Source of the DNA: Spinacia oleracea
Lineage: Eukaryota; Streptophyta; Magnoliopsida; Caryophyllales; Amaranthaceae
Assembly (NCBI RefSeq): GCF_020520425.1
Contig: NC_079490.1
Location: 3,224,001 to 3,288,000 of the forward strand
Direction of reading: 5' to 3'
DNA length: 64,000 nucleotides
Shown here: one piece after another, positions 4,201 to 62,085 of the stretch
Layout: every line of letters starts with the position of its first letter
How positions within the stretch are numbered: position 1 is the stretch's first letter
Made by a program: the position numbers and the translations under genes
The notes under the pieces: model-generated
The model's input: the letters and a program-made list of their open reading frames with translations, nothing else
The model's database searches: none
What the model was told of the DNA's origin: nothing

Positions 4201-7200
4201 TATCTGTAATCATTAAGCTTCCCCAGCTACTACATGGTTGAAAGAGTGTGGTTTGTTTCAAATATGTAAATCATGTGGTTGCTTGATCTTATTCAGGTTG
4301 TTGCTGCTCCGGAGGATAAGGGAACTGCTGCAGCACTTCGTGCAATTTCCCATCACTTGACTGCTAGCGACGTTTTGGTAAGGATTTTGTATTGCGTTTA
4401 TTAGAACAAGCATATTCATCTGTGCATCTTCCAGCAGTTATTAGTTATTACACTCTTTTGGTTCAGTGCTGATATCTAAATCTGCTTTTTGTTGCGGCAA
4501 GGAAAAAAAAATCTATTCCACAACCTACCTTATTATACTTTCACATAAACTTTTTTCGTGATAATGTTCCTATGCTAACAACGTTTCTGCCAAATGTTCA
4601 TTATCCACTCTTATTAACTGTCTAATTTTCTGAAGGTGGTGAGTGGTGACCTTGTTTGTGATGTTCCCCCGGGGGCTGTGGCAGCTGCTCATAGACGACA
4701 TGATGCAGTTGTGACTGCAATGCTTTGTTCCACCCCTGTTAGTGGAAATACAGAATCTGTATCGTCTAGTGGAAAGGAGAAGAAACCAGCACGTTGTAAT
4801 ATCATAGGATTGGATGTCACAAAACAGTTTTTACTGCACATAGCTGCAGGTTTGACTTTTGGATGTCTATTTGTTTGGATCACTTATAAGTTAATTTTTT
4901 TTTTCTTCATATGGGTTCAATAGTGCTGGGTGACTCTTGTCAGGCACCGAGGTTAATAAAGATATGCGATATCAGAAGAGCATACAACAGGCAGCTGGGC
5001 AGGTATTTTACTTCTTTCCCTGTGAAACTGTTGGTGATTCTCTGTGAACATGTTGTCTAAGGAATCTTCAGAACATTTTTCCAATCTTCAAAATCAGAAG
5101 AGAAACAATTTTTTTTTTCCGAGCTGCAAAGCTGTTGTCATTGTTCTCATGCTTCATCCTTGTGTCAGAGATTGTCACGTTGTTCACTATTTTTTGTAGA
5201 TGTGCATTTGGTTCTGTCTAATACTCTCCCTCCCTTTCTTCCGCTCTTTGCAGATGGAGATCCGAACTGATCTTATGGATGCCCATCTATATGCTTTCAA
5301 GAGGTTTGCTTCATCTATTTTCCTTTTGCCCATGGGGGGAGGGTATATTATACTCTCTCCGTATTTAATTAAAAGATACATTTTTTTATAATAAGTCGTA
5401 TTTAATTAAAAGATACACTTTCCTTTTTTGGCATGTCATGGTCTCCGCTTCCAATTATATTAATATTTCTCTCATTCTTGTGGTCCTCCACACTTACCCA
5501 CATCATCTTTTCACTACTCCACTTTTATCTTATTTTAATAAATTCAAATCACTCTTCTGAAATTACGTACGTGCCAATTCTTTTAATTTAAATACGGAGG
5601 GAGTATCATTTTATTTTGTTCTTTTCGAGTAATCTGTTCATCCATCATCTTTTGCTTTTCTTTTTCCTGAAGATCTGTTCTTCAAGAAGTTCTTGTCAAG
5701 GATCTTGACCAGAAAGAGAAATTTAGAAGCTTAAAGCAGGATGTGCTGCCCTATCTTGTCCGTACACAGCTGGTGAGTGTGGTATCTTCCATGAGACGGA
5801 TGCTAGTTTGCTTTTCCTTAACAGCTTATAGAAGTTTCTGAATTCTGACACATGATTGTTGATTGATACATTGTAGAGATCAGATGTCCTGACAAATGTG
5901 ACTCTGCAAACAGAAGAAAACGGGAATGGAATACTCTCATCAGATAAAAACCAAGTTATGCTCTCCCAACTATTGGCTAATGCTTCTACCCCGAGTTTCC
6001 ATGAACTATTTGCGTTGGGACGTAATGGAGTTGCTAGCACTATGAGAAAAACGCACAAATGCTGTGTTTACATTGCTGGCAATGACAAGTACTGTGCACG
6101 CTTGAATTCCATTCAAGCTTACAGTGACATCAATCGCGATGTAAGACTCTAGCACCCAGCACTTAAATATTACTCTCTCCATCCCAATTTATTCTTTACG
6201 CTTTCCGTTTCTAGTTCCCATTTTAATCTTTGCACTTAGAATCTTTCATTTTATATTGTAGCATAAAAGTCACTAATGTTCTGTCAAATATCGTGCCAAA
6301 TGATTATTTCAACCAATCAAATTCATTGAGTGAATTTAACCATTAAATCTCTCGCACTTTCCCATTGGAACATTAAATATTTTTCATTTTTCCAATGTCA
6401 AATTTTTGATAAAAGTGAAAATATTATTAATAAACGCAATTTACACTGTTTAATTAAACAACAGGAGAATTTTTATCCACATTAATTATTTGTTAAGTCG
6501 CTTGCATGATACCAAACGTAAAGAATAAAATGGGACGGAGGGCGTATAACTGATTTATTGGTCTCATTCTGTTATTTTAGCAGTGTTCACCGTTCAGTGA
6601 CCTTGACATCTTTTATTTCAGGTCATTGGAGATGCTAGCCATTTATCAGGGTATTCATTTTCTCCTCAGCACAACATCATTCATCCTTTTGCCGAGATTG
6701 GATCAAAGACTAAAGTGAGATTGATTCTTGACTTCTTTCTCTCTCTCTCTTTTCCCTTTGTTTTCTATATTTTTGCTCGTACACTAATGATATTGTTTTG
6801 TGGAATTAGGTGGGACCGCATTGTATAATTGGTGAAGGTTCACAAATGGGTGATAAATGTAGTGTAAAACGATCTGTCATTGGTCGTCATTGTCGGATAG
6901 GTTCAGACGTTAAGGTACACTTACTTTTTCTCTCACAAATTTCTAGTTAGCTGTATCTTTTAGGTGTTCCTCTTTTTAACCATAACAATAGTTGACAAAA
7001 GAACACATAGCTTTGACTTAAATGTCTAATAAGAGTCCTTCTACTTTGCCGTATTAATGAGTCTAAAATGGAACAGTATACTGTTCTGCATCGTTTTCAT
7101 CATCACAATTTCACGACCCTTCTTTTTCATGAAAATGCAGATCGTGAATTCAGTGGTTATGGATCATATTACCATCAGTGATGGCTGTTCGATTCAAAGT

Positions 7201-9904: not shown

Positions 9905-12900
9905 ATGTCGAACGAAAGCGTCGAAACTGGGAAAAACAACGTCGAAGATGATTCTGTTGTTCGATCATTATTTCCAAATGGCATGAAAGTTTTAGTTGTT
10001 GATGACGATCCTGTTTGTCTAAAATACGTCACTAAGTTGCTTGATTGCTGCAAATATTATCAAGGTTTGATTTTTTTTCCATGAATTTTTCTTTTTATTA
10101 CGGTTTTTTCTTCCTCAATTATTAGGGTTTATTCTTCCTGAATTATTAGGGTTTATATATTCTCTATTATTAGGGTTTTGTTTGTTTTCTTGTGCTAGGG
10201 TTTTCCTCATCTATTTAGGGTTTTCATGTTTGGATTAATTCAGAGGATCCTAAACTCTCATTTTATTAAAAAGCTTAGATCTGTATTACATTTGTGACTA
10301 ATTAGAGTAAAATCATAAATAAATTTGTTGAAAGGATTAAAAGTTAATTAATCTATACCATATTTTTATGTGACGGTACTTATATTAAATCCAGTGTTAG
10401 TTTTATACTTGGTAAAAAACCATGGACGAATCTAACTCTGAGCCAAATTAAAGATCAAAATCACCAATTAATTTTATTGTTTCCAATTATGTTTTAGGGC
10501 AAATTAACCACCAAAGTATATTTATGATAAATACATAAATGTTACTACGCCTATTTTTAATGCCAATTTGTTGAAAGGATTAAATGTTAATTAATCTAGG
10601 CAAATTTGTCAAAAACTAAAACTTTTTCCCAAATTATGAACGTTGAACAAAATTTCGGATTGAATGTATTATAAGTATCTCACGTGTCATTTAATAACCC
10701 ATTTTCCGTGAGATAACACGTGAGATGCACCTTATAAAGATAACACGTGAGATGCACCTAGGGGTGTCAAATCGGATCAACGGATCGGGTTTGGGTCGGA
10801 CTCATCGGATTCGGGTTGAAACGGATCGGATTGGAACGGAATAATTTGGCTAACGGGTCGGATCGGATCGGATTGAAAACTTAACGGACCGGATCGGGTC
10901 GGATGTTTTATTCACGGATTCATATCGGATCGGGTTGTAAACGGGTCGGATTGTAGTCGGTTTGGGTCGGATCAGATCGGATTGGAATATGACGGATTGT
11001 TAACGGGTTTAGTCGGACTAGAAGGGGTTCGGGTTCATGTCGGTCGGATTCATATCGGATCGGATTCATTTCGGGTCGGATTCATATCGGATCGGATTCA
11101 TTTCGGATCGGATTCATATCGGATCGGATTAATCGGTAACAGACTAAAACGGGTTGGAATGAAACTAATTTAGCCTGGTTACATTGGATTCAGTTTTATA
11201 TTGGTTCGGGTAATTATCGGATCGGGTTATTTGGTAGTGGGTTGGAATTTGGGTCAGTTAGGTTCCAAATTATATATTATCATATCGATGACTTAATTAG
11301 GGGACGAAAATAATAACCAACTTTTAAAAGTAATAAGAATTTAAGATCAGTAATATAAGTTATTGAATATATTATTATATCGATGGGTTGGAAACTTGGA
11401 ATTAGTTCGGATTAAACAGGTCACGGATTAAAAACGGATCGGATTAAACGGGTCACGGGTTGAAACGGGTCGGATTAAACGGGTCACAGATTAAAAACGG
11501 ATCGGATTAAACGGATATTCCTCTGGTTGGAACGGATTCGGATTCGGATTGAAACGGATCGGATCATAAACGGGTTTCGGATCGTTTCGGATCGGATTAA
11601 ATGGATCCGGATTGTCACGGATCGGTCTGTTAACGGATTCGGATCTTAATCGGATCAATACTAACGGGTTGGGTCGGATTCGGGTTGAATATAATCGGAT
11701 CGGATCGGATTTCAGATTTTAACTCGCGGGTTCTAAACGGTTCGGATTCTAAACGGTCGGACAAATCCATCGGGTTCACTGGGTCGGATTGAGAATTGAC
11801 ACCCCTAGATGCACCTAATAAAGTCAATCTCCGAATGTTTAATGATTTAATCAATACTTATATAATCCAACCAAAGGTTTCGCAAAAATCCAATTTTATC
11901 AAGTTGTTTTTGACAAATTTGCCATTAATCTATTATGTGACATTGTGCTTATATTAAATTATTTGTTAATTTAATACCCAATATTTTCTTTTTTTTCAGT
12001 TACTTCAATGATTAATCCAGTTGAAGCACTAAACCTATTAGAGAAGAACGAGGTCAAATTCGACTTGTTATTAACAGACGTATGTATGGAGTTAATTAAC
12101 GGATTTAACCTTCTAGAAGCCGCCCGTAAACATGACATCACGGTGGTGCTGATGTCGGGCCACGACGACCCGAAAAACGTCAAGAACGGCGTTATGCACG
12201 GCGCTCGGTATTTCTTGAGTAAACCTGTAAATTTGAAAGATATAAAGCTAATTTGGCAACATGTTTTTCGAAATCTGATCGAAAAATGCTCGATGAAGGA
12301 GAATTTTGGTGAAGAAAACGAGGTTTTGATGAAGAAGGGGAAGTTTAAGACGATGAGGAGTGGTGGTGGTGGTGATGATGATGATGATGCTGCTGCGGTG
12401 GCGGAGGTGGAGGCGGCGGCGGTGGTGGCGGAGAAGCAGCGGAGGAGGGAAAGGGTGAGGTGGAGTCATGAACTTCATACTGAGTTTGTGGCGGCGATTG
12501 AGAAGCTTGGAGGGAAAGATAAGGCCGTACCTAAGAAGATTCTAGAAATGTTGGGGAGAAAGTATAATTTGACTCGAGAAAATGTTGCGAGTCATTTGCA
12601 GAAATATCGAAGGAGTCTTTCGAAGAATAAGGTTCAGGTTAGTGGCGGATACATGGGGTTTAAGTGGGGTCACGTAACAAAAAAAAGAAGTTAATTGAGC
12701 AAATTGGTAAAAAAGAGTAACCATCAACGACAATTTGGTAAAAAAAGCTTGTTGTGGCGATAAGTTGGTAAAAGAAATAGGGCTTCAGCGACAAGTTGGT
12801 AAAAAAAATTGAGCTATGGCGACACCTTAGGTAAATAAAATGAACTTTGACGATAATTTGGTAAATAAAATGGATTTCTAGTGACATATAGGCCATATTT

Positions 12901-58287: not shown

Positions 58288-58919
58288 TATCAAACGTTGC
58301 GAGTATATATAAACATAAAAAGTATTATTTTTAACACGAAACGGAGACAATATTATTATATTTAGGACCTAACTCCATAATCGAGTTTGTTAAAAAAGGG
58401 CCAATATATATGCCCAACTAATTACAAAAAGGGCTTATCTTGTGTTTCGGGGTTGAAACGATAGTAGGAGCGTCCTTGGTATCTTGAGTTCCGGTCTCGT
58501 GCGGTGCCTGCAAGATGAACTCCGGGCCAAGGGGGGGGTCCCCGAGGCGGAGCCTCCGACGCTCAAGTCAGTACAATTGATGTATAAAATGAGGTGTTTA
58601 GGGGAGAGAGAGTAGGGTGGCTTCTCTAGGGTTAGAGAATGACCCCTTTACCTTGCCCTTTGAGAGGTATATATAGTGCCTTTGTTGGGCCTTTGAGGCC
58701 TTGTAAGGGATATTGGGCTTGAGTGGATTTTATTGGCTTTTAGGTTAAAATGGTGGGCCCATTTTAACACCCCAACAAATGCCCCCCAGACCCAATTCTA
58801 TTTGAAAAATGGGTTGGGTTTTGATTTTGATCACTTCCAAGTGAAAGTCGATTTCAGCTCAGAATTTTAACCTCGGCTCGGATTGTAACATCGGTTCGAG
58901 TTGTAATCTCGGCTCGGAT

Positions 58920-59425
58920 TTTACCTTCGGATTTTTGTCCTTCGGTTTTTTACCTTCGGCTCGGTTTTGTCCTTCGGATTTTTACCTTCGGCTCGGTTTT
59001 ATCCTTCGGATTTTTACCTTCGGCTCGGTTTTGTCCTTCGGATTTTTACCTTCGGCTCGGTTTTATCCTTCGGATTTTTACCTTCGGCTCGGTTTTATCC
59101 TTCGGATTTTTACCTTCGGCTCGGTTTTGTTCTTCGGATTTTTACCTTCGGCTCGGTTTTGTCCTTCGGATTTTTACCTTCGGCTCGGTTTTATCCTTCG
59201 GATTTTTACCTTCGGATTTTTACCTTCGTCTCGGATTTATCCTTCGGATTTTTACCTTCGGCTCGGTTTTATCCTTCGGATTTTTACCTTCGGCTCGGTT
59301 TTATTCTTCGGATTTTTACCTTCGGATCGGTTTTATCCTTCGGATTTTTACCTTCAGCTCGGTTTTATCCTTCGGATTTTTACCTTCGGCTCGGTTTTAT
59401 CCTTCGGATTTTTACCTTCGGATCG
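58920..59425. repeat. 32-bp minisatellite, left block of the LTR element
   Basis: About 15-16 head-to-tail units of 'ttcggatttttaccttcggc' plus 'tcggttttatcc'. Because 32 is not a multiple of three, overlapping open frames with a 32-residue periodicity arise; these are not taken as genes. Confidence 0.92.
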
Positions 59426-60945
59426 GATTGTAACATCGATTCGAGTTGTAATCTTTGAGCGATTTTTAACCTCGTTCTTCAAATCCGGAGATCTGTTTAA
59501 GAACGTGCTTCTAAAATCGGCTCGGATTGTAACATCGGTTCGAGTTGTAATCTCGGAGCGGCTTTTTACCTTCGGCTCGGATTGTAACATCGATTCGAGT
59601 TGTAATCTTTGAGCGATTTTTAACCTCGTTCTTCAAATCCGGAGATTTGTTTAAGAACGTGCTTCTAAAATCGGCTCGGATTGTAACATCGGTTCGAGTT
59701 GTAATCTCGGAGCGGCTTTTTACCTTCGGCTCGGATTGTAACATCGATTCGAGTTGTAATCTTTGAGCGATTTTTAACCTCGTTCTTCAAATCCGGAGAT
59801 CTGTTTAAGAACGTGCTTCTAAAATCGGCTCGGATTGTAACATCGGTTCGAGTTGTAATCTCGGAGCGGCTTTTTACCTTCGGCTCGGATTGTAACATCG
59901 ATTCGAGTTGTAATCTTTGAGCGATTTTTAACCTCGTTCTTCAAATCCGGAGATCTGTTTAAGAACGTGCTTCTAAAATCGGCTCGGATTGTAACATCGG
60001 TTCGAGTTGTAATCTCGGAGCGGCTTTTTACCTTCGGCTCGGATTGTAACATCGATTCGAGTTGTAATCTTTGAGCGATTTTTAACCTCGTTCTTCAAAT
60101 CCGGAGATCTGTTTAAGAACGTGCTTCTAAAATCGGCTCGGATTGTAACATCGGTTCGAGTTGTAATCTCGGAGCGGCTTTTTACCTTCGGCTCGGATTG
60201 TAACATCGATTCGAGTTGTAATCTTTGAGTGATTTTTACCTCGCTCTTCAAATCCGGAGATCTGTTTAAGAACGTGCTTCTAAAATCGGCTCGGATTGTA
60301 ACATCGGTTCGAGTTGTAATCTCGGAGCGACTTTTTACCTTTGGCTCGGATTGTAACATCGATTCGAGTTGTAATCTTTGAGTGATTTTTAACCTCGCTC
60401 TTCAAATCCGGAGATCTGTTTAAGAACGTGCTTCTAAAATCGGCTCGGATTGTAACATCGGTTCGAGTTGTAATCTCGGAGCGGCTTTTTACCTTCGGCT
60501 CGGATTGTAACATCGATTCGAGTTGTAATCTTTGAGCGATTTTTAACCTCGTTCTTCAAATCCGGAGATCTGTTTAAGAACGTGCTTCTAAAATCGGCTC
60601 GGATTGTAACATCGGTTCGAGTTGTAATCTCGGAGCGGCTTTTTACCTTCGGCTCGAATTGTAACATCGATTCGAGTTGTAATCTTTGAGAGATTTTTAA
60701 CCTCGTTCTTCAAATCCGGAGATCTGTTTAAGAACGTGCTTCTAAAATCGGCTCGGATTGTAACATCGGTTCGAGTTGTAATCTCGGAGCGGCTTTTTAC
60801 CTTCGGCTCGGATTGTAACATCGATTCGAGTTGTAATCTTTGAGCGATTTTTAACCTCGTTCTTCAAATCCGGAGATCTGTTTAAGAACGTGCTTCTAAA
60901 ATCGGCTCGGATTGTAACATCGGTTCGAGTTGTAATCTCGGCTCG
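59426..60945. repeat. 154-bp minisatellite, central block of the LTR element
   Basis: About ten units at 153-154-bp spacing. Each contains 'taacatcgattcgagttgta', 'aaatccggagatctgttta', 'gaacgtgcttctaaaatcgg' and 'taacatcggttcgagttgta'. Adjacent units are nearly identical. Each unit itself contains two related halves around 'cggattgtaacatcg'. Confidence 0.92.
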
Positions 60946-61310
60946 GATTTTACCTTCGGCTCGGTTTTATCCTTCGGATTTTTACCTTCGGATTTTTACC
61001 TTCGGCTCGGTTTTATCCTTCGGATTTTTACCTTCGGCTCGGTTTTATCCTTCGGATTTTTACCTTCGGCTCGGTTTTATCCTTCGGATTTTTACCTTCG
61101 GCTCGGTTTTATCCTTCGGATTTTTACCTTCGGATTTTTACCTTCGGCTCGGTTTTATCCTTCAGATTTTTACCTTCGGCTCGGTTTTATCCTTCGGATT
61201 TTTACCTTCGGCTCGGTTTTATCCTTCGGATTTTTACCTTCGGATTTTTACCTTCGGCTCGGTTTTATCCTTCAGATTTTTACCTTCGGCTCGGTTTTAT
61301 CCTTCGGCTT
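60946..61310. repeat. 32-bp minisatellite, right block of the LTR element
   Basis: About eleven units of the same 32-bp sequence as the left block, in the same orientation. Several shortened 'ttcggatttttacc' units are present. The unique sequence 61311-61664 that follows ends in 'ccccacagacggcgccaaat' at the start of the right LTR. Confidence 0.9.
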
Positions 61311-62085
61311 GAGGTTCACTGGACTTCAATGGAGATCCACATGCCCTTTCATTCGTTTTTAATCTGCTGATGCCATTACCTCTTTGGTTCTTGTGGGCTT
61401 TAACATGTAATTTGATTTCCAATAATATTGGAGAAAACAACATGCTACTAAATTGCCACATTATTTTGTGACTGAATTGTCGTCAATGAGCTTGCCAACT
61501 CAATTATTACCCACTTCGTAAAGTTGGATATTTGTTGGCAAAATGGTAGTTTTTGACCGGCTGTTTTGAACTTCCCGGTCACTTCTTTGTGCTTGAAGAC
61601 GATAGCCATGAACGAGTGGATATTCATGGGTTATTGTACTCGATCCCCACAGACGGCGCCAAATTGTTTCGGGGTTGAAACGATAGTAGGAGCGTCCTTG
61701 GTATCTTGAGTTCCGGTCTCGTGCGGTGCCTGCAAGATGAACTCCGGGCCAAGGGGGGGGTCCCCGAGGCGGAGCCTCCGACGCTCAAGTCAGTACAATT
61801 GATGTACAAAATGAGGTGTTTAGGGGAGAGAGAGTAGGGTGGCTTCTCTAGGGTTAGAGAATGACCCCTTTACCTTGCCCTTTGAGGGGTATATATAGTG
61901 CCTTTGTTGGGCCTTTGAGGCCTTGTAAGGGATATTGGGCTTGAGTGGATTTTATTGGCTTTTAGGTTAAAATGGTGGGCCCATTTTAACACCCCAACAT
62001 CTTGTATTACAATCTATCCTTAATGTACTATTCACTTTCTATTTTGGTGTGTTTCATAATATTTTACTCGTATTTTAAAATATAA

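Follow-up and report, generated by a model that had tools for sequence, protein, structure and literature searches.

Non-autonomous LTR retrotransposons of the TRIM and LARD types consist of LTRs, a primer-binding site (PBS) and a polypurine tract (PPT), have no coding domain and depend on a helper. Macas et al. are said to have described in 2009 how 3′UTR repeats of Ogre elements in Lathyrus sativus turned into satellites. According to the parts of the literature consulted here, Tat elements often carry hypervariable tandem repeats in the 3′UTR. In two Lathyrus families the arrays often occur in non-autonomous elements without pol, and strand transfer between co-packaged copies is a hypothesised cause of such arrays (PMC7004042). 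Elements of the Tat clade (Ogre/Retand) are marked by a polyprotein with a second RNase H, aRH (PMC6317226). Retand elements carry tandem arrays in about half of the recently active elements, with one array in the spinach cluster; between pol and the 3′ LTR, 97% of the Retand clusters carry an antisense ORF for TRP28 (PF04195). Origin and function of the Retand arrays are stated as unknown (PMC11963269). Further satellites derived from mobile elements are reviewed in PMC9659126. Spinach repeats are described in PMC7840529 and PMC6337768, whose consulted parts do not mention the family treated here. A literature search at the level of titles, which is no proof of absence, found no paper titled on it.

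The window analysed, a stretch of 64,000 nucleotides of the Spinacia oleracea genome, contains a complete LTR element at positions 58443–61999. The positions of PBS and purine tract define the minus strand as its reading direction. In this direction the order is 5′ LTR, PBS and leader, a 32-bp repeat block, ten 154-bp units, a second 32-bp block, a tail, the PPT and the 3′ LTR, all on the minus strand. The 5′ LTR (61665–61999) and the 3′ LTR (58443–58777) are 335 bp long, have termini of the TG...CA type (TGTTGGGG...CCGAAACA) and are nearly identical, with exactly two mismatches at LTR positions 143 and 223. The motif TATATATA is located at 61890–61897 and 58668–58675. The PBS region ATTTGGCGCCGTCTGTGGGGA (61644–61664) abuts the right LTR, and its TGG begins 3 nt past the LTR. 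Together with a non-repetitive 5′ leader, it covers 357 bp (61308–61664). This leader belongs to class C as defined below; of the 41 listed matches, copy L017 alone reaches 99% identity along all of it. The first 32-bp minisatellite block of 14-bp and 18-bp motifs (60941–61307) is followed by the 154-bp block (59430–60940), in which ten unit cores were counted and the units contain diverged 18-bp sub-repeats, and by the second 32-bp block (58914–59429). A 3′ tail of ~120 bp (58794–58913) leads to the PPT GGGTCTGGGGGGCATT (58778–58793), which abuts the left LTR. The final ~70 bases of the tail are similar in all 21 copies aligned. The target-site duplication, a feature without strand that reads TCTTG on the plus strand, is present on the left at 58438–58442 and on the right at 62000–62004. 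A PBS after the 5′ LTR and a purine tract before the 3′ LTR are marks of an LTR retrotransposon, and the window element is a real, young and mobile one. A young element with two 335-bp LTRs had been proposed in the sequence-only reading; the duplication and the minus-strand orientation are added here.

Tandem arrays were called with Tandem Repeats Finder (TRF). The 154-bp array extends from 59405 to 60964 with 10.1 copies, 98% matches and a score of 3008, and its units have an inner period of 18 bp. Arrays of 32 bp were detected between 58914 and 59426 and again between 60943 and 61307. TRF recovered the three blocks of the sequence-only reading, and tandem repeats account for 2442 of the 2887 interior bases (85%). 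The description of the blocks as mirrored was wrong: both 32-bp blocks run in the same direction and are direct repeats. One reading of the 32-bp unit is that it joins a 14-bp and an 18-bp version of a single motif, and a motif of ~18 bp is common to the 32-bp and the 154-bp units; both block types likely have a common origin. The arrays stop about 90–140 bp short of the 3′ LTR and are located in the non-coding region before it, a common but not universal trait of the Tat clade. A separate minisatellite cluster, in which a similar TCGGAT motif abounds, is present at 11029–11761 of the window; its units are 32 bp or 16 bp (TCGGATTCATATCGGA) long.

A single 154-bp unit has a predicted fold of −44 kcal/mol versus −26.9 kcal/mol for shuffles (z −4.7). 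A selected functional RNA structure was rejected because both strands of the unit fold better than shuffles and pairing was kept by 9 of 29 distinct paired-position substitutions (31%, null 35%), none of them with both sides changed. Substitutions at paired positions were somewhat fewer than under the null (29 versus 36.8, sd 3.3).

The claim that the element has no coding sequence holds in substance. Open frames without stop run through the repeats for up to 255 codons, yet none of the five window frames tested reached any Pfam family cut-off, and the antisense repeat ORFs were rejected as genes. These frames contained no gag-pol domains, as is typical of a non-autonomous LTR element. In the 20 other short copies introduced below, the longest frame outside the tandem parts has at most 184 codons. 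PF04195 (TRP28) was absent from the window frames scanned while matches exist in the genome (150 scored of 2698 candidates). The element is therefore not classed as a typical Retand.

The genome searched comprises 894,210,420 bases in 242 contigs. Allowing two mismatches, the PPT-LTR junction was found at 119 places and the LTR-PBS junction at 683 places, which include other families; the reversed controls gave 0 for both. For each junction, the 100 places listed first were used for pairing: 71 PPT-LTR places have an LTR-PBS partner and 29 have none. The interiors span 953–4688 bp in 59 of these pairs and 7.6–16.1 kb in 12. Eleven of the 12 long pairs were retrieved; the twelfth shares its 5′ junction with another pair and is possibly not a true pair. 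The 21 short copies read are a biased sample: the window copy, 12 copies chosen by LTR likeness and the 8 with the shortest interiors. They have interiors of 953–3593 bp, and their LTRs show 0–6 mismatches per ~335 positions plus 0–4 gap positions. Identical 5-bp target-site duplications are present in all 21, so that the several insertions each have the signature of an LTR retrotransposon. Identical duplications and few LTR mismatches establish that the movement assumed in the sequence-only reading is real. A substitution rate of 1.3e-8 per site per year yields estimated insertion ages of 0–0.7 million years for the 21 copies and 0.23 million years for the window copy. The family is recently active, with dozens of copies differing in their repeats. 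In two places, a pair of family LTRs is arranged head to tail with ~10 bp between the two (C4:13231680-13232350 and C6:47331818-47332497). At C1:93544082-93563734 (L028/L029), LTR, interior, LTR, interior and LTR form a chain in which the middle LTR is common to both interiors. One interior of this chain carries a 3.8-kb internal duplication with 98% identity.

The window copy and its relatives are probably recently inserted non-autonomous LTR retrotransposons, copied in trans by a helper of the Tat group and changed in their arrays by RNA switching or slippage. The element would retain only what copying in trans needs: an LTR with a TATA box, PBS, leader, tandem region and purine tract. The repeats would be a travelling cargo at the site where Tat elements have their hypervariable tandem region, between pol and the 3′ LTR. 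The presumed source of Gag and Pol is a Tat-group Ty3/gypsy element, Ogre/Retand-like, that has coding capacity and has its LTR end and primer site in common with the window element. Three loci with same-PBS junctions (L050, L051 and L052) were selected by the PBS pattern itself, and their PBS likeness is a selection effect. All three junctions lead into gag. RVT_1 is present in two of the three (L051 and L052) and RNase H with RVT_3 in one; L051 has two RNase H-type modules, RT_RNaseH and RVT_3. Over 4.5–5.0 kb compared at E 0.001, the three loci match the window element only over 37–45 bp at the junction. Among the copies read, no helper shares the LTR of the element; coding gypsy elements share only the LTR end and the primer site. 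Gypsy machinery with the same primer site is present in the genome, and it may mobilise the family. The element has no polyprotein in which aRH could be sought, so its Tat membership is putative.

An autonomous element with the same LTR may exist or have existed recently, and the copies may be its plain internal-deletion derivatives. We consider this rather improbable. It fits with four longer copies that share LTR and ends and have interiors of 7.6–10.3 kb (L027, two in L028/L029, and L030). However, the frame pieces scanned from L027, L029 and L030 (17) and from the long copies L031 and L035 (10) all stayed below the Pfam family cut-offs; L028, represented in the scan by L029, is 98–99% like it over shared stretches. 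Likewise, nothing in Pfam matched 20 non-tandem frames from 11 short copies at E values of 0.1 or below. Five other long copies hold Ty1/copia domains, which are taken as nested insertions. The three copies with interiors of 14.0–14.4 kb (L021/22, L023/24 and L025/26) belong to these and were rejected as autonomous partners; the others are L033/34 and L037/38. The domains seen were Pol_BBD, gag_pre-integrs, rve, SH3 and RVT_2. Among the copies read, which are part of the family, neither a gag-pol of the family's own nor the autonomous partner with the same LTR envisaged in the sequence-only reading was found. Some of the 5 copia-bearing copies among the 11 long copies retrieved have 154-bp units on both sides of the copia domains, and a preference of copia elements for 154-bp arrays is possible.

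Other copies with the same LTR but different unit numbers do exist, as had been anticipated. With A for the 32-bp block and B for the 154-bp units, the layout A-B-A is present in 10 of the 21 short copies, some with a very short A. Five copies have B-A, one has B alone, one A alone and four have longer alternations. The number of 154-bp units per copy ranges from 0 to 11, with a total of 121. The tandem fraction of the interiors is 27–85%; the window copy has the highest value, and several of its relatives are much less repetitive. The array is hypervariable, and the sandwich layout is one of its states. Longer non-coding members carry other arrays with periods near 246 bp and 160 bp (L028:929-2394 and 4676-6149; L029:1584-3057; L030:6808-8449), hence array types differ within the family.

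Unequal crossing-over or replication slippage in copies already inserted, as in ordinary minisatellites, could be the main source of altered repeat numbers, with reverse transcription merely copying the array. Units are indeed slightly more alike within a copy (95.5%) than between copies of the same leader class (94.3%) or otherwise (93.1%), and the difference between within-copy and between-copy likeness, 0.022, is above all 999 label shuffles. The array of L010 and L011 was also copied nearly unchanged. Their interiors have 3 differences in 2827 sites and an equal unit number, and they are a recent sister pair at separate sites with the duplications ACTCT and ATTAT. Their near-identity demonstrates that arrays can move nearly intact. 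On the other hand, copies with 0–1 LTR mismatches already span 0–11 units (L039, L019), and a fixed locus cannot yield mixed combinations of U5 haplotype, leader and units. A change mainly after insertion is thus unlikely.

These combinations emerged from leaders, LTR ends and units of the 21 copies. The leaders form class A with seven copies, class B with four, class C with the window copy and L017, and class D with L010 and L011; six copies are outside these classes. Leaders of different classes are 77–86% alike over aligning stretches. Class A leaders have 0–5 differences per 448 sites, yet their copies carry 0–11 units of 154 bp, and their interiors span 953–2524 bp. The U5-side part of the LTR (sites 277–331) has two haplotypes that are 8–9 linked sites apart, and both LTRs within each copy have the same haplotype. 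Leader A occurs with both U5 haplotypes, in two (L009, L020) versus five copies, and so does leader B, in one (L012) versus three copies. Haplotypes of 8–9 linked sites are not explained by single mutations. L012 needs an extra step, since its LTR site 331 is not accounted for by one switch at the boundary of LTR and PBS. L043 with leader B and L045 with leader A differ from each other by 1 LTR mismatch, yet the likeness of the two leaders is about 80% in the stretches that align. Exact 154-bp units are common to different leader classes, for example, to the window copy (C) and L043 (B). An ancestral retention of these units is possible but less likely because the leaders have diverged.

Four-gamete conflicts within the LTR affect 33 of 120 site pairs. 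Of these conflicts, 29 involve the LTR sites 36, 133 or 136 and may be due to recurrent mutation; within a single copy, the two LTRs can disagree at sites 133–136. The four-gamete counts were for this reason downgraded as main proof of recombination. The mixed combinations of U5, leader and units point to strand transfer between co-packaged RNAs. In retroelements, strand transfer can lead from U5 to the 3′ end of another RNA. Copying in trans would start with two unlike RNAs in one particle, between which the reverse transcriptase would switch or on whose repeats it would slip. The first strand transfer would bring the U5 of one RNA to the 3′ end of another, followed by switching inside the arrays. 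Each round could alter number and order of the repeats and join a leader to another LTR half, as the mixed combinations suggest. The tandem array may even have a function instead of being cargo, as a long homologous landing strip between leader and U3 on which reverse transcriptase could join any two co-packaged RNAs, a doubtful proposal at present. If true, a protein-less element would persist by constant end swapping, and the family would be a reassorting population held together by a minisatellite.

The sequence-only reading had suggested that such an element could serve to seed satellite arrays throughout a genome. This, or the capture of a pre-existing satellite, is very unlikely here, even though a satellite origin from such arrays has been published for Lathyrus sativus Ogre elements (PMC7004042). 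Array loci were grouped from the listed part of 323, 610 and 688 matches, three overlapping sets. Among the matches listed, all array loci of the three sets (40, 39 and 21) are located within 4 kb of a listed junction, a vicinity covering at most 0.18% of the genome, and the longest array spans 3.0 kb. Genome-wide, 610 cores of the 154-bp unit were found with up to three mismatches. This number roughly fits 119 junctions if each copy carries 5.8 units, the mean from 121 units counted with a looser match in 21 copies. Satellite DNA forms long arrays independent of a mobile element; among the matches listed, neither such arrays nor a free satellite array founded by the element's repeats were seen in the assembly. 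An assembly artefact is hardly conceivable: tandem arrays are error-prone in assemblies and the unit numbers derive from one assembly, but 21 insertions, each with its own duplication, have the same repeat types in different arrangements.

The window copy is a protein-less element with an interior of 85% tandem repeats that was still copied recently. The family is young and without coding constraint, and each of its parts (leader, LTR half, repeat unit) can be scored on its own. Strand transfer is therefore testable with orthologous insertions across accessions. The family is valuable mainly because the way in which its ends and units are mixed allows array turnover, an open question, to be tested.

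TRIM and LARD elements resemble the window element in the presence of LTRs, PBS and PPT, the absence of a coding domain and the need for a helper. The window element is larger than TRIMs and mostly smaller than LARDs, and its interior is tandem repeat instead of a conserved unique stretch. The Ogre elements of Lathyrus sativus share short LTR-framed arrays, sometimes in non-autonomous elements without pol. In the consulted parts of that study, a GAG domain stays near the arrays in two families, whereas gag and pol were not found here; the Ogre repeats also form longer satellite arrays, one of them hardly, and none were seen here (PMC7004042). Retand (Ty3/gypsy, Tat clade; cluster 'Spinacia oleracea 1') is similar in its arrays before the 3′ LTR, its family-specific repeats and its recent activity, and some Retand clusters are non-autonomous. 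The clusters tabulated have internal regions of 7.4–12.9 kb with coding domains and LTRs of 315–1194 bp; the LTR of the Spinacia oleracea cluster has 425 bp versus 335 bp in the window element (PMC11963269). The window element differs from Retand in that its interior has 2.9 kb, codes for nothing, lacks TRP28 and interleaves two types of unit. The sequence-only reading had called the element unusual. This applies to an interior of nearly only tandem repeats and not to the arrays as such, which have been published for Tat, Ogre and Retand elements including non-autonomous ones (PMC7004042, PMC11963269). Tandem arrays before the 3′ LTR of Tat, Ogre and Retand elements, defective copies included, are known; the unusual feature is an interior so rich in repeats.
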